From Thiomargarita sp. (lineage in GTDB: Bacteria; Pseudomonadota; Gammaproteobacteria; Beggiatoales; Beggiatoaceae), in contig DYPD01000030.1 of NCBI GenBank assembly GCA_020720115.1, positions 1 through 38,200 of the forward strand: DNA of 38,200 nucleotides, written 5' to 3'. A program made the position numbers and the translations under genes. Shown here one piece after another: positions 10,766 through 27,366 of the stretch (position 1 is its first letter; each line of letters begins with the position of its first letter). Under the pieces are notes generated by a model that did not search any database, was not told the DNA's origin, and saw only the letters and a list, made by a program, of their open reading frames with translations.

Positions 10766-10792
10766 AAGATTTTAGTGTGTGGTTATGGGGGT

Positions 10793-11929
10793 TTAGGGAG
10801 TTTTTTGTAGCCAAGCCAGTGGGTCTAACGGCGTTCCTTGTTGGCGTAGTTCAAAATAAAGTGCGGCTTGTTGACTGCCACCACTGTTGCCGACGCTGGC
10901 GATGACTTCGCCGCTTTTTACCGCGTCGCCGACTTTTTTGTACAGGCTTTGGTTGTGTCCGTACAGGCTCATGTAGGTGTTGTCGTGTTCGATGATCAGT
11001 AGTTGTCCGAAATTGCGAAACCAGTCGGCGAAAATCACGCGCCCGCTGGCAACTGCCTGTACTTTGGCGCCGGTTTGGGCGGCAATCAGCAAACCTTGCC
11101 ATTGTAGCGAACCTATGCCTCGCGCATCGCCAAAACTCTGTAGTACCTGTCCTTCCAGGGGCCAGGGCAGGTGCTTTTGCAATTGCGCAAAGGCGATATA
11201 GTCGGTGTCTGGTGGCAATCCCAGGGCTTTTATGTGTTGCAATGCGCGGCTCAGGCTGCGCTCATCTTCTTGTAATTCTTTCAATTTTTTGCTGTGTCCG
11301 CGGTAATCCTGGTCAAGTGCTTGGAGGATTTTGCGGCGCTCTAGGTTGCTGCTTTCCAGGTCTTGTTTTTGCGCTTGTTGTTCTTGTTGTAAGCTGCTGA
11401 TGGCGCTGGTTTCTTGCTGAATGTCTAAGTCGAGAATTTCGAGCCGTTCGAGGGCGTTGCTGATGTCGGTGATGCGCTGGGCGCGGGCGCGATTGAAATA
11501 ATCGTAATAGGTTAGGGTGCGCCCGACAGTGGCGGGGTCTTCTTGGTTAAGCAAGATTTTTAAGTAATCCTGACGCCCGATAATGTAAGCAGCGCGAATT
11601 TGCCGTGCCAGGTTTTGCTGTTGTGCGCTGAGTAATTGTTCTTGCACTAGGCGCTCGTCGCTGAGTTCTTGATGGCGACTTTGCTTGCGCTGCAATTCTT
11701 TATCTAATTCTTCCAATTGTGCTGCCAGGTGCCCGATGTGCCGCTCGGCGTCCTGCAACTGGCGGTGTAAATGCCCGTAGCGGCTGCGATTGTCTTCAAT
11801 TTGGCTTTGCACCGCTGCAATGTCGTGTTGCACCGTTTCTAATTGCTGCGGTTTATCTGCGGCGGTGGCGTGCACAAAAATGCCAAAACCCAGCGCAAGC
11901 ATAGCAATCCAAAAGATTTTTTTCTGCAT
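10793..11929 (-). CDS. envC: murein hydrolase activator EnvC (degenerate LytM/M23)
   Basis: A 378-residue periplasmic protein. The signal peptide is MQKKIFWIAMLALGFGIFVH, with cleavage near ATA. A long glutamine-rich coiled coil covers about residues 25-230. A C-terminal LytM domain follows, with GRVIFADWFRNFGQLLIIEH, SLYGHNQSLYKKVGDAVKSG and VGNSGGSQQAALYFELR. The last motif has YFE where active M23 peptidases have HxH, so zinc-dependent catalysis is not expected. EnvC of E. coli shows the same loss and activates amidases AmiA/AmiB at the division septum. The ATG at 11929 starts the signal peptide and lies seven bases after the dusA stop. It probably belongs to the patZ-dusA-envC-purM operon. 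Confidence 0.93.
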   Translation of the reverse strand: MQKKIFWIAMLALGFGIFVHATAADKPQQLETVQHDIAAVQSQIEDNRSRYGHLHRQLQDAERHIGHLAAQLEELDKELQRKQSRHQELSDERLVQEQLLSAQQQNLARQIRAAYIIGRQDYLKILLNQEDPATVGRTLTYYDYFNRARAQRITDISNALERLEILDLDIQQETSAISSLQQEQQAQKQDLESSNLERRKILQALDQDYRGHSKKLKELQEDERSLSRALQHIKALGLPPDTDYIAFAQLQKHLPWPLEGQVLQSFGDARGIGSLQWQGLLIAAQTGAKVQAVASGRVIFADWFRNFGQLLIIEHDNTYMSLYGHNQSLYKKVGDAVKSGEVIASVGNSGGSQQAALYFELRQQGTPLDPLAWLQKTP

Positions 11930-11936
11930 ACTGTGC

Positions 11937-12971
11937 TCAACAAGGAGCGTCGGGCGCAGCAAGCCTGGTTGCAGACACCCCTGCCGCTGCGGTTTGCAGC
12001 ACTTCCACGCCCGCGCCCGACAGGTGGGCGTGTTCGCTGATGTAACGTCGCCAGCGCCGTGCTCCGGGCACGCCCTGAAACAAGCCCAGCAAATGGCGGC
12101 TTAAATGGCTTAGATAAAGTCCTTGTGCCAGTTGTGTTTGCGCATAGGGTATGAATTGTTCAAGGATGTCCTGCCGAGTGGGTAGCGGATGCGCGTCGCC
12201 GTAATAGCGCCCGTCTACCTGCGCTAACCAGTAAGGATTCTGATATGCCTCGCGTCCGATCATCACGCCATCTACCTGTTCCAGTTGCGCATCCACTGTT
12301 GCCCAATCCCGAATGCCGCCGTTAAGACTGATGTGCAACTGTGGAAAATCTTTTTTTAATTCATGTACATATTCATAATACAGCGGCGGAATTTCGCGGT
12401 TTTCTTTGGGACTCAAACCCTGCAACCAGGCTTTGCGGGCATGAATAATAAAAATTTTACAACCCGCCGCCGCAAGCGTATGCACAAAGGCGTGCAAAGG
12501 CGCATAGCCTTCTTGATGATCAATGCCAATGCGGGTTTTCACTGTCACTGGAATTTGTACCGCGTGGCGCATCGCCGCTATGCACTCCGCCACGCGCTGC
12601 GGTTCTGCCATTAAATAAGCACCAAAACGACCTGATTGTACACGATCACTGGGGCAACCGAGATTCAGATTGATTTCGTCATAGCCCCAGTCCTCGCCGA
12701 TTTTCGCGCATTGCGCGAGTTCCATTGGCACGCTGCCGCCTAATTGCAGCGCCAGCGGACGCTCTGCTGGATGAAAGTCCAGAAACCGCGCCCGCTCGCC
12801 GTGCAAAATTGCGCCCGTCGTGACCATTTCCGTATAGAGCCAAGCGTGGCGCGTGATCAGCCGCAAAAAATAGCGTTCGTGCCGATCAGTCCAATCCAAC
12901 ATAGGCGCAATGGCAATCCGCCGCGTTCGCGCACAGTCGGCAAACTGGCTTAAATTTTCTGATAAGTTCAT
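11937..12971 (-). CDS. dusA: tRNA-dihydrouridine synthase A
   Basis: A 344-residue flavoenzyme that reduces uridines 20/20a in the tRNA D-loop. Motifs are IAIAPMLDWTDRHERYFLRL at the N-terminus, LQLGGSVPMELA for FMN binding, INLNLGCPSDRVQSGRFGAY with the catalytic Cys of GCPS, VKTRIGID, FIIHARKAWLQGLSPKENRE and the phosphate-binding SLNGGIRDW. The extended RKAWLQGLSPKENR loop is typical of DusA rather than DusB or DusC. The C-terminal helical tRNA-binding region includes SRHLLGLFQGVPGARRWRR. Its start codon follows the patZ stop by 29 bases. Confidence 0.96.
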   Translation of the reverse strand: MNLSENLSQFADCARTRRIAIAPMLDWTDRHERYFLRLITRHAWLYTEMVTTGAILHGERARFLDFHPAERPLALQLGGSVPMELAQCAKIGEDWGYDEINLNLGCPSDRVQSGRFGAYLMAEPQRVAECIAAMRHAVQIPVTVKTRIGIDHQEGYAPLHAFVHTLAAAGCKIFIIHARKAWLQGLSPKENREIPPLYYEYVHELKKDFPQLHISLNGGIRDWATVDAQLEQVDGVMIGREAYQNPYWLAQVDGRYYGDAHPLPTRQDILEQFIPYAQTQLAQGLYLSHLSRHLLGLFQGVPGARRWRRYISEHAHLSGAGVEVLQTAAAGVSATRLAAPDAPC

Positions 12972-13000
12972 AAATCGTCTAAAAAATAATCAGACTTCAG

Positions 13001-15679
13001 TTAGAGAAATTTATGCACCAGCGTTAGATTTCTGTCGTCTGGGTCAACTCGTGTGCTAAAGCCAAGTTTTTGCACGAGTTTTAACATGCCGAAGTTGTTG
13101 CTTAAAACCTCGCCTTCCATAGATTGCAAGCCGCGAGCACGGGCGGCGTCCATGAGGCTGCTCATGAGTTTGTGCGCAAAACCGCGTCCTTGCCAGGCGT
13201 CAGCCACAACGATGGCAAATTCACAACTGAGTCCGTCGGGGTTCATGGTGTAGCGAGCAACGCCGAGTTCGACTTCGTGCCCATCCATTTGGGTAACAGC
13301 AATGAAGGCCATTTCTCGGTCGTAGTCAATTTGCGTGAAGCGTATGAGCATTTCTGGCGTCAATTCGTTAATTGACTGTATAAACCGAAAGTATTTGGCT
13401 TCATCGGAAAGGTTTTTCACAAAATCATGTTCGATTTCTGCATCTTCAGGGCGAATCGGGCGAAGGGTGATATTGCGCCCGTCGGCTAGTTGCCAGTGGT
13501 TGACCAGGTGGTTGGGGTAAGGATAAATCGCCATGTGTGCGTACCGGTCAGCCGAGGGAATGTAGTAATCCACTACCACTCGTGCGTCTACTGCGACTAT
13601 GCCTTCTTCGTCGGCAATCAGCGGATTGATGTCTATTTCGCGTAGCCAAGGCAGTTCGCAGACCATTTCCGAAACGCGCAGCAACACGTTTTCCAACGCC
13701 TCCATCTTGATCGGCGGCATTCCGCGAAACTCTTGCAGGATTTTTTTGACGCGGGTGCTGTTGATCAGCGTGCGCGCCAAGTAGTGGTTGAGTGGTGGCA
13801 ACGCGACGGCGCGGTCGTTGATGATTTCGACGCTGACGCCGCCCGCGCCAAAGGTGATGACGGGACCAAACACCGGATCGCGGAACATGCCAACCATGAG
13901 TTCGCGCCCGTTACGTTTACGGCTCATGCGCTCGACGGTCACGCCATCCATGCGGGCATCGGGGCGGCGCCTTTGCGCTTCAGAGATGATTTCGTTAAAG
14001 GTGGTGCGGATAGATTGCGCATTGCTTAAGTTGAGGCGCACGCCGCCCACGTCGGATTTGTGCGGGATGTCGGGTGAGTTGATTTTCATCGCCACTGGAA
14101 AGCCAAGCGACTCAGCCAGCACCAGAGCTTCGTTGGGGGTTTTGGCAATGGCTGTGCCGATGATGGGGATTTGGAACGCACCGAGCAGTGCTTTGGATTC
14201 CATTTCGGAGAGGACTTTGCGCCGCTCGGTTAAGACGCTTTCGATGATGATTTGTGCGCCTTCAACATCAGGTCCGGCGGAGTGTCCAAGTGAACCAGGG
14301 GTTTGTACCAATAATTTTTGGTTGCGATGGTGCGCGGCTAAATAGCTGAAGGCTTCAACTGCGGCTTCGGGGGTGCGAAAATCCGGCAGGCGGGCTTGGC
14401 TAAAGAGATCGCGGCTGCTTTGCACTTGGCGTTTGCCCATCCAACAAGTCAGTATCGGTTTGGAAGAACGATTCGCCACATCCACCACCGCCTGAGCAAT
14501 CTCTAAAGGCTGCGTCACCGCTTGCGGCGTCAGTATGACCAACATCCCGTCTACCTGACTATCTTGCAACGCCAGTTCGAGCACAGTGCGGTAACGCTCT
14601 GCACCGGCATCACCCAGCAAATTCAACGGGTTGCGATAGTTCCATTGCTGCGGCATAGCCTTTTTCAGCGCAGTGACATTGGTACTGCTGAACTCGGCAA
14701 GATGGATGCGCAAATCCAGCGCACGGTCAGCCGCCATAATGCCCGGACCAACGCCGTTGGAAATAATCAACAAGCGACTGCCATAGGCTTGATAACGAGA
14801 CGCCAAAGTAGTGGCAGTGGCAAAAATCTGCCCGAAGTTTTCCACCCGCACCACCCCCGCCCGTTGCAAAGCAGCGTCAAAAGCAGCGTCTTTATTCAGC
14901 AAGGCACTGTGCTGGTGCGTGCTGCTTTGGGTATCCAGATCGTAACGCCCAGACTTCAACACAATGACCGGTTTCATACGGGCAGCAGCACGCAAGGCGC
15001 TCATGAAATTGCGGGCATGATGAATGGTTTCGATATACAAGATGATGCTGCCGGTTTGCGGATCAAAGGCGAGATAATCCAACACCTCACCAAAGCTGAT
15101 GTCAATCGCATCGCCCAACGACACCACTGTGGAAAAACCCACATCGTTGAGTTCTGCCCAATCTAAAATCGCAGTACAGAGCGAACCCGATTGGGAAACC
15201 AGGGCTAAGTTGCCAGGTTTTAAGCGATTTTGTGTAAAAGTCGCGTTGAGTCCCAACTGCGCCCGCATCAAACCCAGGCTATCGGGACCTAAAAAACGCA
15301 GGCTGTAGCCCTTAGTAATGCCAACCACCGTTTGCGCCAGCTTGGCGCTGACTTTACCCGCATGAACAAAGCCACCGGTTAAGATAATCGCCGTGTGAAT
15401 ACCGTGTTCACCGCAACTTTCAAGGATTTCCGGCAACTCCTGTGCTGGAGAAGCAATAACTGCTAAATCAACAGGTTGCGCAACTTCTTTAAGGTTGGCA
15501 TAAACTCTCTGTTCCAAAATCTTTTTATGTGTTGGACTGATCGCGTACAATGTGCCCTTGTACTCGCCCTCCAGTAAGTTTTTAAATGCAATAGTCCCGA
15601 TAGCGCCGGTTTCTTCCGAGACACCGAACACAGCAACCGAACGCGGGATAAACAATGTGCTTAAAAAATGTCGGCTCAT
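13001..15679 (-). CDS. patZ: acyl-CoA synthetase (NDP-forming)-like / GNAT protein acetyltransferase fusion (PatZ/Pka type)
   Basis: An 892-residue protein with the same architecture and length as PatZ (YfiQ), the lysine acetyltransferase of enteric bacteria. Residues from about 1 to 130 form the CoA-binding Rossmann domain (FIPRSVAVFGVSEETGAIGT). The succinyl-CoA-synthetase-like region follows, with LVSQSGSLCTAILDWA. An ATP-grasp part spans about residues 490-710 (MKINSPDIPHKSDVGGVRLN, FGAGGVSVEI). The C-terminal GNAT domain from about residue 735 has the acetyl-CoA loop VADAWQGRGFAHKLM. In relatives the synthetase part is regulatory and the GNAT part acetylates enzymes such as acetyl-CoA synthetase. 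The ATG at 15679 has AAGGAAAG just upstream. It is the first gene of a four-gene leftward run. Confidence 0.92.
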   Translation of the reverse strand: MSRHFLSTLFIPRSVAVFGVSEETGAIGTIAFKNLLEGEYKGTLYAISPTHKKILEQRVYANLKEVAQPVDLAVIASPAQELPEILESCGEHGIHTAIILTGGFVHAGKVSAKLAQTVVGITKGYSLRFLGPDSLGLMRAQLGLNATFTQNRLKPGNLALVSQSGSLCTAILDWAELNDVGFSTVVSLGDAIDISFGEVLDYLAFDPQTGSIILYIETIHHARNFMSALRAAARMKPVIVLKSGRYDLDTQSSTHQHSALLNKDAAFDAALQRAGVVRVENFGQIFATATTLASRYQAYGSRLLIISNGVGPGIMAADRALDLRIHLAEFSSTNVTALKKAMPQQWNYRNPLNLLGDAGAERYRTVLELALQDSQVDGMLVILTPQAVTQPLEIAQAVVDVANRSSKPILTCWMGKRQVQSSRDLFSQARLPDFRTPEAAVEAFSYLAAHHRNQKLLVQTPGSLGHSAGPDVEGAQIIIESVLTERRKVLSEMESKALLGAFQIPIIGTAIAKTPNEALVLAESLGFPVAMKINSPDIPHKSDVGGVRLNLSNAQSIRTTFNEIISEAQRRRPDARMDGVTVERMSRKRNGRELMVGMFRDPVFGPVITFGAGGVSVEIINDRAVALPPLNHYLARTLINSTRVKKILQEFRGMPPIKMEALENVLLRVSEMVCELPWLREIDINPLIADEEGIVAVDARVVVDYYIPSADRYAHMAIYPYPNHLVNHWQLADGRNITLRPIRPEDAEIEHDFVKNLSDEAKYFRFIQSINELTPEMLIRFTQIDYDREMAFIAVTQMDGHEVELGVARYTMNPDGLSCEFAIVVADAWQGRGFAHKLMSSLMDAARARGLQSMEGEVLSNNFGMLKLVQKLGFSTRVDPDDRNLTLVHKFL

Positions 15680-16223: not shown

Positions 16224-18221
16224 GTGTCTATAGAAGATAAAGCCCAAGCGGAAGCCAATCGTCTGGTAGAGGAAATTGACCAGTCCCAGGCTAAAGCAAA
16301 AAGCCCAAATGCGGTCAAAAGAGCCGAGGCACAAAAGCTGATAGCTGAGATCAACCGTTTACAGGTAGCGGCAATTCGTGATCAGGATTCAGAAAAAGCC
16401 CGCCAAGCCAAAGCAGAAACCAAACATTTGTTTGAAACACAGTTTGCTTACGTTCGCGCTAAACAGCAAAATGCCCGCGAACAATTGAATCGCTTAATGC
16501 AGGCTAAACAGCGTTATGATTTAGTGCAAAAACAAGGCACGGGCAAACCTGATCCTAAATTACAGCAACAACTCTTGCAGCTTATCAAAGCCAAAAAAGA
16601 AGAATTTGTGCGTCTGAATCAGGAAGCAGACACGATCCGCCAGCAAGCCCAACAAAAATCTATTATTTTAGGTGAAACGCCAGGTTCATTTGAACACGAA
16701 GCGATCACTAAAGCCCAAGCCGAAAACACCAGCTTAACTGAACGCGCTAAAGCTGAAGCAGAAAAGCTGATCAGCGAAGTCACTCGGCAAAAACCCAAAG
16801 ATTCCTCTGATAAAGCCGAAGAAGTTGGCAAAATGATTGCCGAAATCAATCGCCTACAAATGGCGGCTGAACAGGGCATATTATCTGAAAACGAAACCGC
16901 GCAATTAGAAGAACGCATCAAGCGTGTAGAATCCAAGCAACGTGAATCACGCGATCAGATTAACCAACTGACACAAGCAAAAATCAAATATGAATTAGCG
17001 CTGGCGCGTTCTGCAAAGGCTAAAGATGAAGAAAAAACGCGCCGTGCGCAAGATGAAAAACTACAAAAAGAACTCAATTCTCTGATTCAGAAAAAAGAAG
17101 ATGAACAGCGCCAACTCATGCAAGAGTTAGAATTGATTCGTATGCGTTCAGAGCAAGAAGCCGCTTTATTGAAAGCCCAGCGTGACGCTGCCCGTGCCCT
17201 AGCTGAACAGCAAAGCCAAGATGACGACGAAGACAAACCGCGTTCAGGCAAAAACAAGTTGTTGCTCGTTATGCTGGTGTTGCTTATCTTAACAGGCATA
17301 GGCGTGGGCGGATTTTTTGCCATGCCACAACTGAAAAATCTCCTAAATCCGCTGCAAACCAGCAAAAGCGAGTCTTCCCCCGCTGCCACACCAGCATCGC
17401 GCACAAACGTGGAAAAAACGCAAAAACCCGAGCTTGCTCCAGAATCCAGCCAACCCGAAGCAAGCGTCAGTAAAGTCAGACCAGGTGCTGAGTTTGCTGA
17501 CCGTTTACTCACTGGTGGACAGGGTCCAGTGATGATACAGTTACCGAGCGGCTCTTTCTTAATGGGCAGCCCCGATTATTTACCTTATTCCGACGAACGC
17601 CCGCAATTTCAGGTGACTTTGCAGGGCTTTTCTATTGGCAAATACGAGGTGACTTTTGATGATTATCAAAAATTTGCCCGCGCCGCCAGTCGGCGTTTTC
17701 CTGACGACAACCATTGGGGACAACAAAACCGCCCAGTGGTTAATGTGACCTGGGATGAAGCCAACGACTATACCCAATGGTTGACCCAGCAAACGGGTAA
17801 ACAGTATCGCTTGCCCAGCGAACGAGAATGGGAATACGCCGCGCGTGCAGGCACGACTGGGCAATTTTGGTGGGGCAACCGTCTGGATAAATCGCCCGTC
17901 AGAGCCAATTGCGGCGTCTGCGGGAGCGAGTGGGACGGGATAAAAACCGCACCTATTGGTCAATTTCCCGCCAATGATTTTGGCTTACATGATGTGATTG
18001 GCAATGTTATGGAATGGACGCGCAGTTGTTATCACGTTGATTATGCAGGTGCGCCAGCAATTGGCAATATTTGGGAAAGCAATGCAGATTGCACGCAGTA
18101 CATGGTGCGTAGCAGTGCTTTTAATACTTACAAGCGTGATATTCGGATCACCAGAAGACAGCCCTTTAACCCTAAATCCCGCGCTAATAATCTGGGATTT
18201 CGTGTCCTACGGGTTGATTAA
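16224..18221 (+). CDS. coiled-coil / transmembrane / FGE-sulfatase-modifying-factor-like protein
   Basis: About 665 residues. Residues 1-320 are a charged coiled coil (rich in E, K, Q, A) made of two related halves of about 150 residues. Compare AEINRLQVAA with AEINRLQMAA, and QLNRLMQAKQRYDL with QINQLTQAKIKYEL. A single membrane helix, LLLVMLVLLILTGIGVGGFF, lies near residues 345-367. A Ser/Pro/Glu-rich linker follows, then an SUMF1/FGE-type domain (about 435-665) with GSFLMGSP, RPVVNVTWDEA, YRLPSEREWEYAARAG, GNVMEWT and NNLGFRVL. Predicted topology puts the coiled coil in the cytoplasm and the FGE fold in the periplasm. The two active-site cysteines of formylglycine-generating enzymes are absent from the RSSAFNTYKRDIRITRR region, so catalysis is unlikely and ligand or protein binding is more plausible. 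The GTG at 16224 was chosen for a GAGAGA site seven bases upstream; a GTG at 16197 is the alternative. The next gene follows after 11 bases. Confidence 0.85.
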   Translation: MSIEDKAQAEANRLVEEIDQSQAKAKSPNAVKRAEAQKLIAEINRLQVAAIRDQDSEKARQAKAETKHLFETQFAYVRAKQQNAREQLNRLMQAKQRYDLVQKQGTGKPDPKLQQQLLQLIKAKKEEFVRLNQEADTIRQQAQQKSIILGETPGSFEHEAITKAQAENTSLTERAKAEAEKLISEVTRQKPKDSSDKAEEVGKMIAEINRLQMAAEQGILSENETAQLEERIKRVESKQRESRDQINQLTQAKIKYELALARSAKAKDEEKTRRAQDEKLQKELNSLIQKKEDEQRQLMQELELIRMRSEQEAALLKAQRDAARALAEQQSQDDDEDKPRSGKNKLLLVMLVLLILTGIGVGGFFAMPQLKNLLNPLQTSKSESSPAATPASRTNVEKTQKPELAPESSQPEASVSKVRPGAEFADRLLTGGQGPVMIQLPSGSFLMGSPDYLPYSDERPQFQVTLQGFSIGKYEVTFDDYQKFARAASRRFPDDNHWGQQNRPVVNVTWDEANDYTQWLTQQTGKQYRLPSEREWEYAARAGTTGQFWWGNRLDKSPVRANCGVCGSEWDGIKTAPIGQFPANDFGLHDVIGNVMEWTRSCYHVDYAGAPAIGNIWESNADCTQYMVRSSAFNTYKRDIRITRRQPFNPKSRANNLGFRVLRVD

Positions 18222-18232
18222 GGAGTGCCTTA

Positions 18233-18742
18233 ATGAAAATCAGCGAAGAACTGAAACGCCGGATTCGCTTACTCGAAGAAGAGCAAGAACGGCAATCGGA
18301 AGATTTAACCACTTTGGAGCAGTTGCGCGATCTTGCCAGTATCGAAGAACTGGAACAAGAATTAGCAGCCATTGACTCCAATATGCCCATCTCCAACAAA
18401 ACGCGCGACACGGTGCGCAAGAATATTGATTTAAGCAAAGAACCCCTATTAATTCCCGACGAAGATGCACCGTTAGCACACATAAAAGAAGAACATGATA
18501 TTGATCTATCAATGGAAATGTTGGGGCAGCATAAAAACCAGTCGCAAGTGCAACAGGGCTATGTGGTCTGCTTGATGTTTAATATCAGCACCCCTAGTGA
18601 ATGGTCTGAAGAAGCCGGCGGCGGCTGGCGCGGCAAAGGCATGGGCACAAGCTACAATAACCGTGCTGATGCCGCAAAAATTTTGCAGCAACTTAAACAA
18701 AAATGGCCTGATTACCCAATTGAATTGCGCCAGGTGAAATAA
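18233..18742 (+). CDS. hypothetical protein with N-terminal coiled coil
   Basis: A 169-residue soluble protein with no signal peptide or membrane helix. Residues 1-50 are a heptad-rich coiled coil (ELKRRIRLLEEEQERQ, then EELEQELAAID). A polar, acidic linker follows. The last 60 residues form a compact domain, YVVCLMFNIS, then a glycine-rich loop GGGWRGKGMGTSYNNRADA, then a helix ending LKQKWPDYPIELRQ. I do not recognise the family. It starts 11 bases after the FGE-like gene with a good AAGGAG site, so the two are almost certainly co-transcribed. The shared coiled-coil character suggests the products may pair. Confidence 0.78.
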   Translation: MKISEELKRRIRLLEEEQERQSEDLTTLEQLRDLASIEELEQELAAIDSNMPISNKTRDTVRKNIDLSKEPLLIPDEDAPLAHIKEEHDIDLSMEMLGQHKNQSQVQQGYVVCLMFNISTPSEWSEEAGGGWRGKGMGTSYNNRADAAKILQQLKQKWPDYPIELRQVK

Positions 18743-18788
18743 TCCAACGAGGGCAATACAGCGTTGTAGAGAAGTTTTTCAGTACAGC

Positions 18789-18821
18789 TTGACTTACGAC
18801 ATAATATGTACCATATTATGT
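18789..18821 (+). promoter_or_regulatory. candidate promoter and operator of the yjfI-pspA operon
   Basis: A TTGACT -35 box (18789-18794) lies 17 bases before CATATT (18812-18817). A perfect 10-bp inverted repeat, ACATAATATG at 18799-18808 and CATATTATGT at 18812-18821 with a TAC centre, covers the spacer and the -10 region. This placement fits an operator whose occupant blocks RNA polymerase. No sigma-54 GG-N10-GC element, as used by classical psp operons, was seen here. Confidence 0.5.
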
Positions 18822-18846
18822 TTAACTTCATTAACGGGAGGATAAG

Positions 18847-19278
18847 ATGACCAATCAAGAGAAATTAGCTGAATTACAGGTAGGCTTGGATGGTGCAGTT
18901 TCAGAACTGGGATTAGAGTTCAAAGCAGAACTCATTAAAGGCAATGACGTCAATGAAAATGTAATACAGGTCATTGTTGATGAACGCGAAGAATTTCCAG
19001 TTTATGTCACCGTAGATAGCGGCCAAATTCTGTGCGTCTCACACCTATGGACAGAACAGGAAGTTAAGCCAGAAAAACGCACTGAAATGCTTGATGCGAT
19101 GTTGACTATCAGTATTCCTATGCCCTTATCTGCTTTTTCTAAACTGGGTAATCAATATCTAATCTTTGGTGCATTAGGCAAGCGTGCACCAGTTAATGAA
19201 GTCATTGAAGAAATTGCAACATTAAGCGAAAACACCCTAACAGCGGTTGAGGAATTCGCTACCTATCTTAAATCCTGA
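18847..19278 (+). CDS. yjfI: YjfI family protein (DUF2170)
   Basis: A 143-residue acidic cytoplasmic protein of the DUF2170 family. E. coli YjfI, its relative, is encoded just before YjfJ, a PspA/IM30 protein, and the same order is seen here. Recognisable parts are QVIVDEREEFPVYVTVDSGQ, LCVSHLWTEQEV, MLDAMLTISIPMPLSAFSK and the C-terminal NTLTAVEEFATYLKS. There is no signal peptide or transmembrane helix. A strong GGGAGG site precedes the ATG. Its molecular role is not established; by context it may help or regulate the PspA-like protein 48 bases downstream. Confidence 0.88.
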   Translation: MTNQEKLAELQVGLDGAVSELGLEFKAELIKGNDVNENVIQVIVDEREEFPVYVTVDSGQILCVSHLWTEQEVKPEKRTEMLDAMLTISIPMPLSAFSKLGNQYLIFGALGKRAPVNEVIEEIATLSENTLTAVEEFATYLKS

Positions 19279-19326
19279 GTGAATGCTCAAGGATTTTGGC
19301 TGTTCACAGTATAACGGGAGGCAGTT

Positions 19327-20037
19327 ATGGGCTTTTTCAGCAAACTATTTACCGCCGTGCGCGGCGCCGCCAGCGAAGCAGGAGATGCACTCATTGATCC
19401 GCAGGCAATACGCATTTTGGAACAGGAAATCCGTGACTCCAAACAAAGTTTGGATCAAGCAAAAGAAAACCTGACCAAAGTGATCGCACAACAAATGGCA
19501 GTAGAACGTGATGTAAAACGTCTACAAAAAACCCTATCTGAATACGAAGGCTACGCAATACAGGCTTTAGATAAAGGCGACGAAGCATTAGCAACCGAAA
19601 TTGCTGATAAAATCGCCGACATCGAAAATGAACTGGAAGCACAACAAAGCGTGCTGAATGGTTTCAAAAACAGCGTGTCTAACCTGAAACACACCATTAA
19701 TGACACCGAGCGTAGCGTGAAATCAATGGAACGTGAGATCAACGTGGTGAAAACCACTGCTAAAGTCAATGAAGCTAAAGAAGTAGCAGCCGCGCAATTT
19801 TCCGGCACCACTTCTTCTTTACGCAATGCAGCAGAATCTCTTGAGCGCGTGAAAAAACGTCAACAAGAGCGTACTGATCGCATGAATGCCGCGTTACAAA
19901 TGCAGCGCGAAGAAGCGGGTGACGGTTTACAAGACAAACTTAAAGAAGCCGGGATTATCAGCGCCAATGCGTCTAGCAATTCAGTATTAGAACGTCTGAA
20001 ACAACGTCGTCAACCGAAAGACCCCATTAGCCAATAA
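19327..20037 (+). CDS. PspA/IM30 family protein (YjfJ-like)
   Basis: A 236-residue, almost wholly alpha-helical protein. PspA/IM30 proteins are membrane-binding relatives of ESCRT-III that coat and stabilise a stressed inner membrane. The N-terminal amphipathic part MGFFSKLFTAVRGAASEAGD and the following DALIDPQAIRILEQEIRDSK are family features. A long helical hairpin follows to about residue 190 and ends in SLERVKKRQQERTDRMNAA. The C-terminal tail SVLERLKQRRQPKDP is basic. It shares the yjfI transcript and has a strong GGGAGG site. A terminator follows at 20148. Classical pspB, pspC and pspF genes are absent here, so it belongs to the YjfJ-like branch. Confidence 0.93.
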   Translation: MGFFSKLFTAVRGAASEAGDALIDPQAIRILEQEIRDSKQSLDQAKENLTKVIAQQMAVERDVKRLQKTLSEYEGYAIQALDKGDEALATEIADKIADIENELEAQQSVLNGFKNSVSNLKHTINDTERSVKSMEREINVVKTTAKVNEAKEVAAAQFSGTTSSLRNAAESLERVKKRQQERTDRMNAALQMQREEAGDGLQDKLKEAGIISANASSNSVLERLKQRRQPKDPISQ

Positions 20038-20147
20038 ACAGCACAAGAGATGAAAACATAAGGATTTTATAACTTTTAGCATGTCCGGTGTTTAACTTCA
20101 ATCAATGACATAATGAAGATAAATACTGGGGTAAAATCCTACAATTT

Positions 20148-20183
20148 AAGATAACTCCTGCTGAAAAAGGCGTTATCTTTTTT
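20148..20183 (+). terminator. rho-independent terminator after pspA-like gene
   Basis: AAGATAAC (20148-20155) pairs with GTTATCTT (20172-20179), followed by a T run. It lies about 110 bases after the pspA stop and 25 bases before the next start codon, so it could also act as an attenuator for the next gene. Confidence 0.65.
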
Positions 20184-20207
20184 GTTTTTAAACTGGGAAC
20201 AACCTTT

Positions 20208-20540
20208 ATGGGCGATTTACCCAAAAACTGGCAACATTCCGAAAAAAGCCTGAAAGCCGTACAACTGGCTTTTGAATTTAATCAGCATATTTCTGATGCT
20301 ATTCGTCAGCAAGCTAATGAACAGGGTTTAAGTGCTTCCGATCAAATCCGCCAAATTATTGGTTTACAACCGAAAAAACCCATCCGTCCGCGCTTAACTG
20401 TGTCTCTATCAGAAGAAGATTACCATTACTTGAGTCAGAGGTATACTCTTCCCATTGACGACAAAGCTGCGATTCGTAAAGCCATTGCGGCTGAACTTAT
20501 CGCATTTTCCGAAGCACAACTGACCACAGATCACACATAA
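20208..20540 (+). CDS. small protein with two ribbon-helix-helix-like segments
   Basis: A 110-residue protein without signal peptide or membrane helix. Residues from about 17 to 52 (AVQLAFEFNQHISDAIRQQA, then LSASDQIRQIIGL) and from about 60 to 100 (PRLTVSLSEEDYHYLSQRY, then DDKAAIRKAIAAELIAF) each show the strand-helix-helix pattern of CopG/Arc-type DNA-binding proteins. Two such units in one chain would form a single-chain dimer. This is pattern recognition, not a family assignment. It lies between the pspA-like gene and a tiny membrane protein gene, so it is a candidate local regulator, perhaps of the palindrome at 18799-18821. Confidence 0.7.
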   Translation: MGDLPKNWQHSEKSLKAVQLAFEFNQHISDAIRQQANEQGLSASDQIRQIIGLQPKKPIRPRLTVSLSEEDYHYLSQRYTLPIDDKAAIRKAIAAELIAFSEAQLTTDHT

Positions 20541-20591
20541 CAAAACAGCCATGCGCCTGCCTAGCGCATCACTGTTTGAGGGGGCTGACGC

Positions 20592-20774
20592 TTGAACCTT
20601 CATTTCTTAAACAACAAAAAAACCTGGTATCTCTTTGCCATCATCGCTGCTGGTCTTGCCGTGCTTTATATGCTTTGGTGGTTGTTTAGCGTGATTGTGC
20701 AAATTCTAGTCTATGCAGCAATCATTTTGGTCATTTATCTGGTATTGAAAAAACAAGGTTGGCTAAAGAAATAG
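20592..20774 (+). CDS. tiny two-helix membrane protein
   Basis: A 60-residue protein. After a short polar start (NLHFLNNKKTW) it is almost wholly hydrophobic, with two predicted membrane helices (YLFAIIAAGLAVLYMLWWLF and VIVQILVYAAIILVIYLVL) and a basic end, KKQGWLKK. The start is TTG at 20592, supported by GAGGGGG about seven bases upstream. It follows the preceding gene by 51 bases. Small membrane proteins often accompany PspA-like genes, so a role at the inner membrane is plausible, but no family was recognised. Confidence 0.65.
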   Translation: MNLHFLNNKKTWYLFAIIAAGLAVLYMLWWLFSVIVQILVYAAIILVIYLVLKKQGWLKK

Positions 20775-20921
20775 CCCTGTTATTTATTTGCAGACTTGTT
20801 CTACTGCTTCCCTACTTTGACCACAGCCTAGACTGGAGGTGGGTATCCCTGGCTTATGTGGAAGGATTAAGCGTCTATACGAAAATCAGTTCATCAAAAA
20901 CATGGAGATTTCCGATAAACC

Positions 20922-21815
20922 TTAATGCGCTTGTTCTGCAATGCCCCGTTGTTTTAAGCTATCCAGTATTTCTTTTAAGTTTGCATAATCTTCCACTTTT
21001 GCTGGCACTAAGCCAGTGACGTCTTTTTGAATGGATTGCAGCACTAAAAGTCCTTCGGGCGTATTACCTATGGCATAGAGCGCTTCACGCATTGCCTGTA
21101 CTTCGGTTTCTGGAAGCTGTTTGCTGGCAACAAACACATGTTCAGAAATCTCTGGTGTCCATTGTAATAATTGCAAGCCTCTTTCTTGAAACTTAAAATA
21201 GATTTCTTCTTTGACTGCACCTACGTCAAATTCCCCCATCAAGACGCTGAGTGCAACGCTTTCGTGATTACCCAGAAACTCATGTTTAGATAACCTATCT
21301 ACATCAATGCCCGCTTGATGCAACATGTAGCGGGGAACTAAATGACTCATGGTTGAATGTGGTGAACCAAAAGCAAAGCTTTTACCTTTCAATTCTTCCA
21401 AGGTTTTGAAATGATTTTGTGGTCCCATGATGAGAGCGCCACGAAAAGTGGGTTTACCATTAATTTCTAAACGTGCTAACAGTGGATTGTTGTGAGTTTC
21501 CAGTAATTCTACATAGGATGAAGGTCCCATATAAGCAATATCTGGTTGATCCTTGCTTACTGCTTCAATATGAGTGGCATAATCTTTAGCAACTTGAATT
21601 TCCACTGTTTTATGCAGCGTCTTAGTCAGGTAATTTGCCAGTGGGGTGAATTTTTTAACCACTTCCTGGGCGCTCACATAGGGATGAATTCCTAAAATCA
21701 AAGTATCTTTTGCTTGTGCTACCTGGCTACCGCTGCCCAACAAGGTGGCAATAAACACGCAAGCAAATGTCTTGAAATGGTTACTGAGATGAAAAGGTGA
21801 ATGGAAAAGCTGCAT
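20922..21815 (-). CDS. PhnD-type phosphate/phosphonate ABC substrate-binding protein
   Basis: A 297-residue periplasmic binding protein. The signal peptide includes FACVFIATLLGSGSQVAQA, with cleavage before KDTLILG. The fold marks of the PhnD/PtxB family are clear: LILGIHPYVSAQEVVKKFTP, PDIAYMGPSSYVELLE, LKGKSFAFGSPHSTMSHLVP and VGAVKEEIYFKF. These proteins bind phosphate, phosphite, phosphonates or other small anions for import, and some serve as input modules for sensors. No permease or ATPase gene is adjacent, so it is an orphan. The ATG at 21815 has an AGGAGGA site upstream. It follows the VWA gene by 71 bases on the same strand. Confidence 0.88.
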   Translation of the reverse strand: MQLFHSPFHLSNHFKTFACVFIATLLGSGSQVAQAKDTLILGIHPYVSAQEVVKKFTPLANYLTKTLHKTVEIQVAKDYATHIEAVSKDQPDIAYMGPSSYVELLETHNNPLLARLEINGKPTFRGALIMGPQNHFKTLEELKGKSFAFGSPHSTMSHLVPRYMLHQAGIDVDRLSKHEFLGNHESVALSVLMGEFDVGAVKEEIYFKFQERGLQLLQWTPEISEHVFVASKQLPETEVQAMREALYAIGNTPEGLLVLQSIQKDVTGLVPAKVEDYANLKEILDSLKQRGIAEQAH

Positions 21816-21886
21816 ATAAATCCTCCTGACAAAGGGGTATTTTTGAGTATTCCTAGAACAATTGCATGAGTGCGGGTTCATTTGGC

Positions 21887-23740
21887 TTATTTAAGCTTCT
21901 GCGCCAGCGATACTAAGCCTAAAAATTCGCCGCGATAGCCGAAGGGATCGTCGCCGCGGGCGCTACGGGCTAGTTGTAAAATCTCTGTAAAACCAAAGTC
22001 TTGCAGATATTGCCCGCCGCGTAGCAGTTGCCCGAAAGCGGCGACGGCGGCGGCGAAGCGAAAGCGTTCGTCGCTGCTGTCGCTGGTTAAAATGCTGTCA
22101 CGCAGCAATGGGTATTCCAGTAGCTTGCTGCTGTCGCTGTCGGGTTGTTTGTAGCGTAGGCGCAGGAAAGCCAGTTCGTTGCTGTGCGGGGGTTGCTTGT
22201 CTGTGGCGTTTTCGTAGCGCAATGCGGGCAGGCGCTCGCCGCCGCTGCCGACTAAGGCGAGTTCGTAGAGCGCGGTAACAGTATGACCAGCGCCGATTTC
22301 GCCCGCGTCTATTTTGTCGTTGGCAAAATCTTCGCGTTTGAGTTGGCGGTTTTCGTAGCCGATTAAGCGGTATTCGGCGACAGCGGCGGGATTAAATTCA
22401 ACTTGAATTTTCACGTCTTTTGCCAGGGTCAAGAGGGTTGCAGCACGGGCTTCGACCAGCACTTTTCGCGCTTCGTTGAGCGTGTCAATGTAGGCGTAAT
22501 TGCCGTTGCCAACGTCAGCCAGTTGTTCCATGAGTTGGTCGTTGTAATTGCCGCTGCCAAAGCCCAAGGTGGTGAGCGCAATGCCGCTGTCGCGTTGCTG
22601 TTTGACCAATTCTTTCAGCGCCTCGAAATTCACAGTGCCGACGTTAAAATCGCCGTCAGTTGCCAGCAATACGCGGTTGATGCCGTCTTGGATAAAGCCT
22701 TGTCGCGCCAGGCTGTATGCCAGTTGGATGCCTTGCCCGCCGTTGGTTGAGCCGCCGGCGCTGAGGCGTTCTAGCGCCGCTTCAATAGTGGCTTGCTGAT
22801 TGCCAGCGGTGGGTTCGAGCACGACGCCTGCTGCACCTGCATAGACCAGGATGGCAACTTTGTCGCGTGCGCTCAGTTGTTTGCTGAGTAATTTCAGCGA
22901 AGCTTTCAGCAATGGCAGTTTGTCAGGCTCGTTCATTGAGCCGGATACATCAAGTAAAAACACTAGGTTAGCCGGCGGCAGCTTGGTTTCATCGAGTTTG
23001 TAGCCTTGAATACCTATGTGTAGTAAATGGGTTTTGGCATTCCAAGGCGTAGGCGCGATTTGCGTGAACACGCGAAATGGCGGGTCTAGGGTGTCTGGAG
23101 TCGGGTAGCCGTAGTCAAAATAGTTGATCAGCTCTTCGGTGCGCACCGCGTCTTGGCGTGGCAGTTGTCCGGCATTTAACAGGCGCCGCACATTGGAATA
23201 AGCGCCTGTGTCTACATCTATGCTGAAAGTGGAAACAGGCATTTCGCGTACTGATTTGAGCGGATTATCGTCAAAATGCGCGTAATTTTCTCGATCTTCT
23301 GCTAATGGCTCTGGTGCAAACCCCTTTTCTATTCCTCGGTAAGCGGGTGCAGGCGCGGCTCGCGTCGCCGGACTGATAGTGCTCATGGGCGCACCAACCG
23401 CTTTCGACTCGTCTTTAGCGGTTGCGGTCTCTGCGCTGCCCGCGTCCGCCTGCGGCGGTGTTGCCTCGCAACCTTGCGCATCTACCCGTGTATTTGCTGC
23501 CATGTTGGGGCATTGATCGAGAAAATCCGCCACGCCGTCGTTGTCGCTGTCTAGCGGACAGCCGATTTTTGCGCCGGATAAATACACCCCGCCAGCGATT
23601 TCTGCGGCTGTGTTCTGTGGGCACTGATCTTGGGTGTCAGCGATGCCGTCACCGTCGCTGTCTTGCGCCGTCGGTGCGCTCGCGCCTGCGGGTAAACTGA
23701 ACACCAACCATAAAGGCACAGCCAGGTATTTAAGCAACAT
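21887..23740 (-). CDS. secreted VWA-domain protein (YfbK-like) with thrombospondin type 3 repeats
   Basis: A 617-residue exported protein. The signal peptide MLLKYLAVPLWLVFSLPAGA is followed by two thrombospondin type 3-like calcium-binding repeats, DSDGDGIADTQDQCPQN and DSDNDGVADFLDQCPNM. A Pro/Ala linker comes next. Then comes the YfbK N-terminal domain (SVREMPVSTFSIDVDTGAYS, EELINYFDYGYP), a VWA domain with an intact MIDAS site (LLDVSGSMNEPD, GGSTNGG, ATDGDFN), and a C-terminal DUF3520-type domain ending GEFLGLVSLAQKLK. YfbK-like proteins are usually about this length, but the calcium-binding repeats are an addition. Function is unproven; metal-dependent protein binding at the cell surface or in the periplasm is likely. 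The ATG at 23740 has a GGAGAA site. Confidence 0.9.
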   Translation of the reverse strand: MLLKYLAVPLWLVFSLPAGASAPTAQDSDGDGIADTQDQCPQNTAAEIAGGVYLSGAKIGCPLDSDNDGVADFLDQCPNMAANTRVDAQGCEATPPQADAGSAETATAKDESKAVGAPMSTISPATRAAPAPAYRGIEKGFAPEPLAEDRENYAHFDDNPLKSVREMPVSTFSIDVDTGAYSNVRRLLNAGQLPRQDAVRTEELINYFDYGYPTPDTLDPPFRVFTQIAPTPWNAKTHLLHIGIQGYKLDETKLPPANLVFLLDVSGSMNEPDKLPLLKASLKLLSKQLSARDKVAILVYAGAAGVVLEPTAGNQQATIEAALERLSAGGSTNGGQGIQLAYSLARQGFIQDGINRVLLATDGDFNVGTVNFEALKELVKQQRDSGIALTTLGFGSGNYNDQLMEQLADVGNGNYAYIDTLNEARKVLVEARAATLLTLAKDVKIQVEFNPAAVAEYRLIGYENRQLKREDFANDKIDAGEIGAGHTVTALYELALVGSGGERLPALRYENATDKQPPHSNELAFLRLRYKQPDSDSSKLLEYPLLRDSILTSDSSDERFRFAAAVAAFGQLLRGGQYLQDFGFTEILQLARSARGDDPFGYRGEFLGLVSLAQKLK

Positions 23741-23851
23741 GAGTTTTCTCCAGAAGTAGCAAGACCAAAATGTCTTGTGTAGATTGTGCAACAAATGCGG
23801 CGCTAAACCAATCACTAAAAGCTTGTGCGTGCCGGTCTGACAGCGCAGAAA

Positions 23852-23874: not shown

Positions 23875-23934
23875 CGCTATTTCACAGTGGCGTTTTAAGC
23901 CATTTTCCCGTTTTTACCTTAAGTGAGTCTATTC

Positions 23935-25482
23935 ATGAGTTCTCGTTTGCTGAAAGCATTAGGCGTAGTCAGCAGTTTGACCTTTGTTTCCCGTATTCTC
24001 GGCTTTGTGCGTGATATGGTCATCGCTCACAGCTTTGGCGCGGGCACCGGCGCGGATGCTTTTTTAGTGGCGTTCAAAATCCCCAATTTCATGCGCCGCC
24101 TGTTTGCCGAAGGCGCTTTTGCGCAAGCCTTTGTGCCCGTGCTGAGCGCCTACAAAACCCAGCGCGAACACACCGAAGTGCAAAATTTGGTCAACCATGT
24201 AGCAGGCACTCTAGGCAGCGTTTTGTTCGTGATCACGCTGTTAGGAATGCTGGCAGCACCTGTGCTGGTACTGCTGTTTGCCCCAGGTTTTTTCGCCGAC
24301 AGCAGCAAATTTGCCCTCACTGGCGAAATGCTGCGCATCACTTTTCCCTACATTTTTTTCATTTCCCTGACCGCTTTTGCTGGCGCCATTCTCAATGCTT
24401 ACGGGCGCTTTGCCGCACCCGCACTGACCCCAGTGCTGCTCAATCTGTGCCTGATCGCCGCCGCGCTCTGGTGGGCGCCGCACTTTAACCCACCGATTTT
24501 GGCGCTGGCGTGGGGCGTGTTGATTGCAGGCTTAGTACAGTTTCTTTTTCAACTGCCGTTTCTGCTCAAGCTACAACTGCTGCCCAAACCCATTGTGCCC
24601 TTTGTACACCGCAACCAACCACCGCACGAAGGCGTACAGCGCATACTCAAACTCATGTTACCCGCCGTATTTGCCGTATCCGTCACGCAAATCAGCCTCT
24701 TGATTGACACCCTGATGGCGTCTTTCCTAGCCACCGGCAGCGTTGCCTGGCTTTACTACTCAGACCGGCTACTGGAATTTCCCATTGGCGTGTTCGGCGT
24801 CGCACTGGCAACCGTCGTGCTGCCCAAATTATCGCGCCAAGCCGCAGCCGATCAGCAGCAAAACTACAGCGATACCCTTAACTGGAGCCTGCGTTGGGTG
24901 TTTATCATCGGTTTGCCCTGCACACTAGGACTCATGCTACTGGCAGTGCCTATCATGGCAACATTGTTCCAACGCGGCGAATTTAACGCCACCGACGTCA
25001 GCATGAGCGCCCGTAGCCTAATCGCCTACAGCCTCGGCTTAATCGCCTTTGTGCTCATCAAAATTTTAGCCTCCGGCTTTTTTGCGCAACACAACACCAA
25101 AACCCCCATGCGCATTGCCATCATCGCCATGCTCAGCAATATCGGCATGAATTTACTCTTTATTGTGCCGCTGGCGCACGCAGGTCTGGCACTTGCCACC
25201 GCACTGTCTGCCAGCCTAAACGCCACCTTACTCTATGTGCATTTGCGCCGCGAAAATCACTTCCAACTCCAACCCGGCTGGGGACGGTTTTTCTTGCGTT
25301 TGGGATTAGCGAGTACCGCAATGAGCCTAGTGCTCTGGTGGGGTGTACCCGCCGCTCACTGGTGGGAAAACGCCGGAGAAATGGCGTGCGCCGGGCAATT
25401 GAGCCTATGGATAAGCGCCGCCGCAGCGGTTTATTTAGCGGTGCTCTGGCTCAGCGGCTTGCGCCCAAAAATGCTGCTTTAG
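23935..25482 (+). CDS. murJ: lipid II flippase MurJ (MviN)
   Basis: A 515-residue polytopic inner-membrane protein that flips lipid II for peptidoglycan synthesis. Family features include LKALGVVSSLTFVSRILGFV, RDMVIAHSFGAGTGADAFLV and FKIPNFMRRLFAEGAFAQAF at the N-terminus. The central TQISLLIDTLMASFLATGSV, YYSDRLLEFPIGVFGVALAT and FQRGEFNATDV are also present. About 14 hydrophobic helices are visible. It is monocistronic in this window: ribF and ileS, which often follow or lie near murJ, are absent. The ATG at 23935 starts the canonical MurJ N-terminus; a GTG at 23923 is the alternative. Confidence 0.97.
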   Translation: MSSRLLKALGVVSSLTFVSRILGFVRDMVIAHSFGAGTGADAFLVAFKIPNFMRRLFAEGAFAQAFVPVLSAYKTQREHTEVQNLVNHVAGTLGSVLFVITLLGMLAAPVLVLLFAPGFFADSSKFALTGEMLRITFPYIFFISLTAFAGAILNAYGRFAAPALTPVLLNLCLIAAALWWAPHFNPPILALAWGVLIAGLVQFLFQLPFLLKLQLLPKPIVPFVHRNQPPHEGVQRILKLMLPAVFAVSVTQISLLIDTLMASFLATGSVAWLYYSDRLLEFPIGVFGVALATVVLPKLSRQAAADQQQNYSDTLNWSLRWVFIIGLPCTLGLMLLAVPIMATLFQRGEFNATDVSMSARSLIAYSLGLIAFVLIKILASGFFAQHNTKTPMRIAIIAMLSNIGMNLLFIVPLAHAGLALATALSASLNATLLYVHLRRENHFQLQPGWGRFFLRLGLASTAMSLVLWWGVPAAHWWENAGEMACAGQLSLWISAAAAVYLAVLWLSGLRPKMLL

Positions 25483-25854: not shown

Positions 25855-27228
25855 ATGCACATTAAACAATGGCTTTGGGAGATACTCATGCCTGATTCTA
25901 TACTCGCACGTCAGCATCGCTTGCTGATTTTGTTTATGATTATTCTGCTTGCCTTTATGGTAATTGCGGGCACGCTTATAGTTTCACAGCAACGTCATTT
26001 GCTACTAGAAGATGAGCATAAACGTGCGCAACTTGAATTAGACCTTATTAGCCAGTTCATTTCTGACTCTTTTTTACGCCGTGATTATTCAGCGGTAAGC
26101 CAATTTTTACGCAATTGGAGCGAGCAACGAGAACAAATTGTAACGCTCAGCGCGACCTTAAAAAACAGTTTTGAACTCATCAGCTATCAGCGTAAAACCC
26201 CAGCGGTCAATAGCTTTCCAGTGCAACAAACCCTGACTTTCTCCAGTGGCAATAGCATCACTTTATCCATTACCAACGATATGCTGGGCATTGAAACCAT
26301 TATTGTTAAGCTTGATCAACAATTAGTGCTTATGTTTATTGCTATCGTAGCGATACTTGGCATCATGCTCTGGATAACTTTAACCCACATTGCACTGAAT
26401 CCGTTAAATGCAGAAATAGTGCAACGCACTGGGCAGCTTAATCAAGTGATAACCGAAAATCTGCGCATGGGCGCAGAGTTACAAGTCAGTCGCCGCTTGC
26501 AACAAATGGTACTGCCTACGCAACAAGAATTAAATCAAATAGAAGAACTGGATATTGCTTGTTTTATGGAGCCAGCAGAAGAAGTTGGCGGTGATTACTT
26601 TGATGTCTTACAACACGATGGAAGAATTAAAATCGGTATTGGCGATGTGACCGGACATGGTTTAGAAAGCGGCGTGTTGATGTTGATGGTGCAAATGGCA
26701 GTACGCACCCTGCTTGCCAACGGTGTGACTGACCCAAAAGCCTTCATGGAAGTGCTCAATCAGGTTGTGTTTGACAATGTGCGACGCATGAAAAGCGATA
26801 AAAACATGACCTTAGCCCTGCTAGATTACTGTGCTGGGCGGCTAAAATTTACTGGGCAACACGAAGAAATCCTATTAGTACGAGCCAATGCCAAAATCGA
26901 ACGTATTGACACCATTGATATGGGTTTTATGGTCGGTCTGGAAAAAGACATCAGCAGATTTATTGAACAAGCCGAATTAATGCTGGCGCCAGGTGACGGT
27001 ATTGTGTTGTATACCGACGGCTTGACCGAAGCCCGCAACGGGACAAAAAAACCTTATAGCCTGGAGCGTCTATGCAAGATTGTCAGTGAAAACTGGCACT
27101 TACCTTCCAAAGCTATCCAGCAAGCGGTCATCAGCGATCTTTATCTATTTGTTGAAGGAGAAAAACTGCTAGATGATGTCACTCTTTTGATTATTAAACA
27201 AAAATCTGCTTTTGCTGAGGCAGGTTAG
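25855..27228 (+). CDS. membrane-bound PP2C/SpoIIE-family serine phosphatase
   Basis: A 457-residue protein. Two membrane helices (ILFMIILLAFMVIAGTLIV near residues 30-48, and LMFIAIVAILGIMLWITLTH near 160-180) enclose a periplasmic domain of about 110 residues. The cytoplasmic part starts with a helical linker and MGAELQVSRRLQQMVLPTQQ. An RsbU/SpoIIE-like PP2C domain follows, with EEVGGDYFDVL, IGDVTGHGLESGVLM, LYTDGLTEARNG and LLDDVTLLII. The metal-binding aspartates are present, so it should be an active phosphatase. Such proteins usually dephosphorylate an anti-sigma-factor antagonist, but no such partner is nearby. Two starts are possible: ATG 25855 (AAGGAG ten bases upstream) and ATG 25888 (GGGAG seven bases upstream). 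Confidence 0.92.
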   Translation: MHIKQWLWEILMPDSILARQHRLLILFMIILLAFMVIAGTLIVSQQRHLLLEDEHKRAQLELDLISQFISDSFLRRDYSAVSQFLRNWSEQREQIVTLSATLKNSFELISYQRKTPAVNSFPVQQTLTFSSGNSITLSITNDMLGIETIIVKLDQQLVLMFIAIVAILGIMLWITLTHIALNPLNAEIVQRTGQLNQVITENLRMGAELQVSRRLQQMVLPTQQELNQIEELDIACFMEPAEEVGGDYFDVLQHDGRIKIGIGDVTGHGLESGVLMLMVQMAVRTLLANGVTDPKAFMEVLNQVVFDNVRRMKSDKNMTLALLDYCAGRLKFTGQHEEILLVRANAKIERIDTIDMGFMVGLEKDISRFIEQAELMLAPGDGIVLYTDGLTEARNGTKKPYSLERLCKIVSENWHLPSKAIQQAVISDLYLFVEGEKLLDDVTLLIIKQKSAFAEAG

Positions 27229-27360: not shown

Positions 27361-27366
27361 GCTCCC

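Follow-up and report, generated by a model that had tools for sequence, protein, structure and literature searches.

We analyzed six consecutive plus-strand genes in a stretch of 38,200 nucleotides from Thiomargarita sp. (contig DYPD01000030.1 of assembly GCA_020720115.1, positions 1 to 38,200; this whole stretch is hereafter called the window). They lie at the coordinates given by an initial annotation made from the sequence alone, which had proposed a single stress module, and they fall into two units. The first (unit 1, 16224-18742) consists of g1, encoding a coiled-coil/membrane protein with a domain resembling the formylglycine-generating enzyme (FGE), and of its partner g2. Unit 2 (18789-20774) comprises yjfI, pspA, a gene for a tandem ribbon-helix-helix (RHH) protein, and a gene for a small membrane protein (Table 1). 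In our preferred reading, to which we give a probability of roughly 0.6, unit 2 encodes a YjfI-PspA system for envelope stress that is controlled by a dedicated tandem RHH regulator, probably a repressor, acting at a palindromic box before yjfI. The RHH protein, which had been given no role in the initial annotation, is the family-wide partner of yjfI-pspA.

The order-level search covered 42 genomes that belong to one family throughout, including the genome of the window, whose named relatives are the large sulfur bacteria Thiomargarita, Thioploca, and Ca. Venteria (the latter placed in Thiotrichales by NCBI). The identities initially assigned to the two core genes of unit 2 are upheld by Pfam: yjfI matches DUF2170 (PF09938, E 2.5e-27), as well as the solved DUF2170 protein 8q8o (E 2e-8), and pspA matches PspA/IM30 (PF04012, E 2.3e-41). 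In the window and in all 14 family genomes with DUF2170, the DUF2170 gene is directly followed on the same strand by the PspA/IM30 gene, which is the arrangement of the YjfI-YjfJ dyad. The RHH gene is found in exactly these 14 genomes and in none of the 28 others, with a Fisher value of 1.9e-11 that is overstated because the genomes are related. It adjoins pspA in nine of the 14 genomes and is unlinked in the other five.

The region between g2 and yjfI contains a perfect 10-bp inverted repeat with a 3-bp spacer, ACATAATATG-TAC-CATATTATGT (18799-18821), that had been missed in the initial annotation. A box, GACATAWTATGTC, is common to the region before yjfI in the 14 family genomes, whose flanks have otherwise diverged. 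Its core, CATAWTATG, occurs at most 160 nt before yjfI in all 14, compared with a mean of 0.058 out of 14 and a maximum of 2 in 500 shuffles; since the motif was defined on these very sequences, this count alone is not independent. Among 146 further upstream regions from these loci, a single one has the core, and the two cores found in the 38.2 kb of the window are both before yjfI. In the 42 genomes, exact boxes are present at eight sites (four for the control), of which six are at the yjfI promoters of four genomes and two are in genomes lacking yjfI. The box also overlaps a promoter-like site before yjfI, although nine such sites were observed in the region against 8.0 in shuffles, and this site is thus not evidence by itself.

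The analysis outside the family was run with the motif already fixed. A profile search of 369 genomes of the class revealed the RHH gene in 13 of them, two within the family and 11 outside. We examined stretches of 7-10 kb around the latter and found yjfI in 10 of the 11, nine of which also have pspA by profile. The core precedes yjfI in all 10 of these dyads, and the exact 13-mer is found in seven, including two whose loci have a G+C content of 65-68%. Seven of the 10 yjfI loci have a pair of boxes spaced 15-18 bp apart, and 20 of the 21 cores in the 11 loci are at yjfI. When these 10 genomes are taken together with the 14 of the family, the box includes the -35 consensus TTGACA in 16 of 24. 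In contrast, the yjfI of E. coli, which has no RHH gene among its annotated neighbors, has no core in a 6.7-kb stretch, and the best 13-mer in the 233 nt upstream has five mismatches. The co-occurrence of the RHH gene with yjfI, together with a core at yjfI inside and outside the family and not in E. coli, is the pattern expected of a dedicated regulator and its operator.

The 110-residue protein most likely is a tandem RHH protein, with two strand-helix-helix units per chain, as judged from its predicted structure. The window protein alone has no confident Pfam match; four of the 14 aligned family members match RHH_1 weakly (best E 0.013), and relatives also give weak NikA-like matches. The AlphaFold model has two helix-helix pairs (mean pLDDT 67.6), with strands not formed in the single-chain model. 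The seven structural matches that rank highest are F-plasmid relaxosome chains, AvtR, and single-chain Arc, with Z of 5.2-5.7 over 75-89 residues, and the next one drops to 3.6. We take the F-plasmid chains to be TraY, and both these chains and AvtR to be tandem RHH proteins. These matches, together with the weak ones to RHH_1, agree with the initial description of the protein as double ribbon-helix-helix-like. It shares the predicted helix arrangement of these tandem or single-chain proteins, but differs from them in its predicted target and genomic setting and has no relationship in sequence beyond the weak matches. Two residues in the predicted strands, Q19 and R62, are invariant in 25 of 25 RHH sequences.

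Several observations weigh against the regulation of unit 2 by the RHH protein. The perfect split of 14 against 28 genomes partly reflects common descent, and a terminator-like hairpin separates pspA from the RHH gene in the window. The window's own boxes are imperfect, with one and three mismatches. The information per column, 1.69 bits in the box versus 0.25 in the flanks, is anchored on the best match, which flatters the box. A -35/-10 pair overlaps the box in all 24 genomes considered (14 in the family and 10 outside), but some pairs have just 8 or 9 of 12 consensus positions and the scan was confined to the surroundings of the box, so this overlap is a description and not an independent test. 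One-mismatch boxes are not enriched genome-wide over a reversed-pattern control, be it in the window's own genome (3 vs 6) or in 18 genomes (103 vs 97), which led us to reject a wider regulon. There is no box with up to two mismatches within 1.5 kb on each side of the five unlinked RHH loci, hence no sign of autoregulation at these loci. Outside the family, the RHH-bearing genome G272 (G numbers are our handles for genomes) has neither yjfI in 10 kb nor a box with up to two mismatches. Finally, E. coli is the single dyad lacking RHH that served as a control. Alternatively, the palindrome could serve a different regulator, or be an unusual promoter element recognized by an alternative sigma factor, with the RHH protein acting elsewhere. 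The five unlinked RHH genes fit such a scenario, as does the presence of the -35 consensus TTGACA within the box in 16 of the 24 genomes. We nevertheless consider it quite unlikely, given that the RHH gene and the dyad have identical distributions in the family, that all 10 outside dyads located via the RHH gene have the core, that E. coli yjfI lacks the box, and that a palindrome is what one expects of a dimeric or pseudo-dimeric binder.

The relation between the two units must be weighed in the same way. Same-strand g1-g2 pairs were found in seven of the 42 genomes (the window's, G003, G016, G041, G017, G002, and G018), which make one clade in an rpoB tree of 27 genomes (support 100/100). 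Six of the seven have yjfI, which adjoins g1-g2 in three. The block g1-g2-yjfI-pspA-RHH is contiguous in the window and in G041, and the order in G002 is g1-g2-(second FGE gene)-yjfI-pspA. The initial annotation held that the grouping would be chance if g1-g2 were never near yjfI-pspA in relatives; the block does recur. However, in G003, which is of the same genus, and in G016 and G018, the two units are on separate contigs and at least 2 kb away from their ends; G017 has g1-g2 without any DUF2170 or PspA match. Hence, the adjacency claimed at first is conserved in part and is not obligatory, and these four genomes contradict an obligate six-gene module. The model behind that claim was that the FGE-like domain of g1 senses a periplasmic signal and relays it to the PspA-like protein by way of the coiled coils and of g2. 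The architecture of g1 is compatible with a protein that spans the membrane once and has its coiled coil in the cytosol, and the recurring block agrees with the model. Yet g1-type proteins are present in 37 of the 42 genomes, as opposed to 14 for yjfI, and the box sits between the units, with no operator-like box within 200 nt before g1 in any of the seven genomes. Together with the separation of the units and the case of G017, this argues that g1-g2 is not an obligate sensor of the dyad, and we regard the single sensory module as unlikely. A neutral neighborhood of unrelated units, kept or remade by chance, is a serious possibility, if somewhat short of an even one. It would explain why the two units are apart in half of the genomes where they could be linked, and why a sister genome has g1-g2 flanked by relatives of the same two genes as in the window (13001-15679 and a VWA gene), with no yjfI among them. 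Against it, the block survives across end branches that measure 0.21 and 0.29 changes per column in the rpoB tree: g1, g2, yjfI, pspA, and the RHH gene are the sole window genes of at least 90 aa in the 14-kb locus of G041, and no further one was found in the G041 and G002 loci (14-15 kb compared, E 1e-10 over half of the length). In G041, the block was thus kept while its surroundings changed.

Gene identities, the co-occurrence of the RHH gene with yjfI, and the conservation of the box before yjfI are computed results. From them, we infer the following course of regulation for unit 2. The tandem RHH protein, a single chain in which two RHH motifs would form a pseudo-dimer, would bind GACATAWTATGTC at the sigma-70-like promoter of yjfI. 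Once bound, it would most likely repress yjfI-pspA, as suggested by the position of the box at the promoter. Membrane stress would lift this repression, PspA would then polymerize on the damaged inner membrane, and the chaperone-like YjfI would probably couple the state of PspA to the regulator. The g1-g2 genes would encode a separate membrane-anchored pair, sometimes beside unit 2, that may assist it.

Table 1. Coordinates of the genes and predicted signals of the two units in the window.
Feature	Position	Strand	Remark
g1, 665 aa: coiled coil in two copies, presumably cytosolic; one transmembrane segment; predicted periplasmic FGE/PvdO-like domain	16224-18221	+	
g2, 169 aa: short N-terminal coiled coil and small C-terminal domain (residues ~105-169)	18233-18742	+	
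Promoter-like site TTGACT-17-CATATT before yjfI	18789-18817	+	9/12 consensus
Predicted operator: two GACATAWTATGTC-type boxes sharing one base	18798-18822		cores at 18800 and 18812 (1 and 3 mismatches); the two boxes make up the perfect 10-bp inverted repeat
yjfI: DUF2170, CesT/Tir-chaperone-like	18847-19278	+	PF09938
pspA/yjfJ: PspA/IM30 (ESCRT-III-like) effector	19327-20037	+	
Terminator-like hairpin with T-run after pspA	20148-20179	+	by eye and as inverted repeat I6; absent from consensus-scan list
Tandem RHH protein, 110 aa, predicted dedicated regulator of yjfI-pspA	20208-20540	+	
Two-helix membrane protein, 60 aa	20592-20774	+	

The last gene of unit 2, the 60-residue two-helix membrane protein already noticed in the initial annotation, is not unique to the window. 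Of the nine genomes in which pspA adjoins the RHH gene, seven (window counted) have a hydrophobic reading frame of 56-79 aa downstream of the latter, a count that omits hydrophobic frames of 95 aa in G016 and 86 aa in the window. The counterparts share 64% identity with the protein of the window in the same genus and 21-36% outside it. A search for plasmid copies of yjfI or of the RHH gene gave no match. The genome of the window encodes two more PspA-like proteins (G000:C130:16953-17597, beside a reading frame of 2201 aa, and G000:C18:7888-8526). In G003 (L051:1619-6996), the yjfI cassette comes after a hybrid histidine kinase/adenylate cyclase gene and a gene of 641 aa lacking a Pfam family.

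The dyad is related to systems that have been described before. The relevant sections of two articles assign a CesT/Tir-chaperone-like fold to DUF2170 (PMC10948618, PMC11237479). Ravi et al. 2024 (PMC11237479) report CesT/Tir(DUF2170)-PspA operons, some of which, in their second group, end with an RHH gene. The window has in common with these the DUF2170-PspA dyad and an RHH gene placed late in the operon. The passages of that article on these operons describe no operator or regulatory link for the RHH gene, and the open-access PMC literature yielded no RHH regulator or operator of PspA/YjfI beyond this mention. The spermine-synthase group in the same passages is marked by neighboring spermine/spermidine-synthase-7TM and DUF350 genes. 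In the window, neither was found among the genes scanned with Pfam (16224-23815 and 25855-36858; the genes at 1059-15679, 23923-25482, and beyond 36858 were unscanned), and the small two-helix membrane gene follows instead. The RHH loci outside the family resemble these operons as outlined there (PMC11237479): Spermine_synth, DUF350, or ion-channel genes occur in four of the five sampled (nine proteins scanned). For the bac operon of Pseudomonas aeruginosa, the parts of PMC10948618 that bear on it give the crystal structure of BacA, a suggested negative effect of BacA on its own operon, and apparent sigma-54 dependence. Like the window, BacA-BacB is a DUF2170 and PspA pair, whereas the window has a tandem RHH gene, and its sigma-70-like promoter bears a palindrome. 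Regarding E. coli yjfIJKL, the sections of PMC12492005 on this operon report a one-base promoter deletion that accompanies strong up-regulation in heat-evolved strains; the yjfI-yjfJ pair is as in the window, but lacks the core and an RHH gene among annotated neighbors. As far as these sections go, YjfI-PspA systems are linked to biofilm formation in P. aeruginosa (PMC10948618), with a role in heat tolerance proposed in E. coli (PMC12492005). Unlike in the classical Psp system (pspABC/pspF, sigma-54), none of pspB, pspC, and pspF flanks pspA in the window, the rest of the genome not having been searched.

We prefer the GTG at 16224 as the start of g1, whose mechanical reading frame opens at 16197. 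Besides an FGE-sulfatase domain (PF03781, E 1.2e-50), the protein has one hydrophobic segment along with two coiled-coil repeats, both of which are recovered by a profile of the second. The coiled coil is presumably cytosolic and the FGE-like domain periplasmic. The C-terminal domain is nearest to PvdO (5hha, E 1.4e-32) and has the fold of PvdO and FGE. Unlike FGE, it is fused to a membrane-anchored coiled coil and its cysteines are replaced. In the alignment to the human enzyme, g1 lacks the pair of catalytic cysteines expected near the C-terminus of an FGE: the stretch opposite these cysteines reads RSSAFNTYKR, and cysteine is absent in nine of nine aligned rows. The extracytoplasmic domain probably binds rather than catalyzes. 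We considered that it could be the target of a diversity-generating retroelement, given its C-type-lectin/FGE fold, and rejected this for lack of a template repeat: the last 162 bases of g1 have no second copy in their own genome, where the next best match is 16 bases (a reverse transcriptase was not searched for).

The count of g1-type proteins given above was made manually from the match list and includes proteins with single or double coiled-coil repeats scoring above 400 bits. The single-repeat relatives mostly have a carbon-nitrogen hydrolase gene beside them (22 of 33 loci), with rsmH in 13 loci and tldD and Mur-ligase genes in fewer, one member per cluster having been scanned. We did not retain a function drawn from these neighbors, which are often cell-wall genes, because they probably reflect chromosomal position only. 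Directly upstream of a single-repeat relative, 12 loci (e.g., L213, L207, and L202) have a gene for a coiled-coil/membrane protein of ~270 aa, similar to the coiled coil of g1 and devoid of the FGE domain. A PspA-like gene lies ~4 kb from two single-repeat relatives in G038, an observation that we judged weak. In G002 and G016, a second gene with coiled coil, transmembrane segment, and FGE-like domain comes directly after g1-g2 (L069:7368-8897 and L066:7755-9227), which suggests growth by tandem duplication.

The g2 gene begins 11 bases after g1, as first noted, and its product has no Pfam family above the cut-off and no NCBIfam match. The protein, or its C-terminal domain, is present in 34 of the 42 genomes. 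One conserved peptide pattern of g2, searched in 84,980 species genomes, resulted in 23 confirmed loci, all with Thiotrichales names in their titles except one "Dichelobacter" and one "Gammaproteobacteria bacterium", which correspond to the family genomes G016 and G031. Five genomes of the class sample match g2, four from the family and one other by the coiled coil only (E 8.9e-4). In the sets searched, the C-terminal domain is thus restricted to this family of large sulfur bacteria. g2 accompanies g1 in seven of seven cases, rather than PspA. Both g2 and g1-type proteins are present in 33 genomes, g1-type alone in four, g2 alone in one, and neither in four (Fisher P 0.003, ignoring phylogeny and completeness, and with g1-type proteins tallied as above). 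A homology between the N-terminal helix of g2 and the coiled coil of g1 was set aside as a lead at most (hhalign probability of just 10%, P 0.003). So was a named fold for the C-terminal domain, whose matches, many of them Rubisco small subunits, are too weak (best Z 4.0). The restriction to the family and the PvdO-like domain without FGE cysteines suggest that unit 1 would be a family-specific membrane scaffold or binding pair, with a possible link to PspA.

Some further observations concern the surroundings and the tree. A VWA/YfbK-type gene is on the far side of g1-g2 in both the window (21887-23815) and G003 (L065:8849-10741). The genes in between differ: yjfI, pspA, RHH, small transmembrane, and PhnD genes in the window, and genes for a HAD hydrolase, a weak HIT-domain match, ExbD, and TonB in G003. 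The RpoB reading frames of nine genomes (G014, G015, G019, G020, G021, G031, G032, G033, and G034) are 1490-2115 aa long and contain large in-frame insertions around positions 370-400 and/or 1070-1106 of the model. Inteins were rejected as an explanation, as no intein model was among the NCBIfam matches of the three that were scanned.

The finding could have a wider bearing, rather unlikely as we hold it to be, if it represented a second general phage-shock wiring in Gammaproteobacteria. A stand-alone tandem RHH repressor would act on GACATAWTATGTC boxes at a sigma-70 promoter, with YjfI releasing or capturing it depending on the amount of PspA on the membrane. This would be a PspF-free analogue of the control of PspF by PspA, to which large sulfur bacteria would have added the coiled-coil/FGE-like pair. 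The switching of YjfI-PspA systems is little understood, and a regulator gene with a predicted DNA site makes it directly testable, while the box provides a sequence handle to find genomes with this wiring. The results on g1-g2 show which part of the module first proposed is lineage-specific. In these large sulfur bacteria, a PspA dyad of a known kind would have a predicted switch of its own, beside an optional membrane pair that appears specific to their family.

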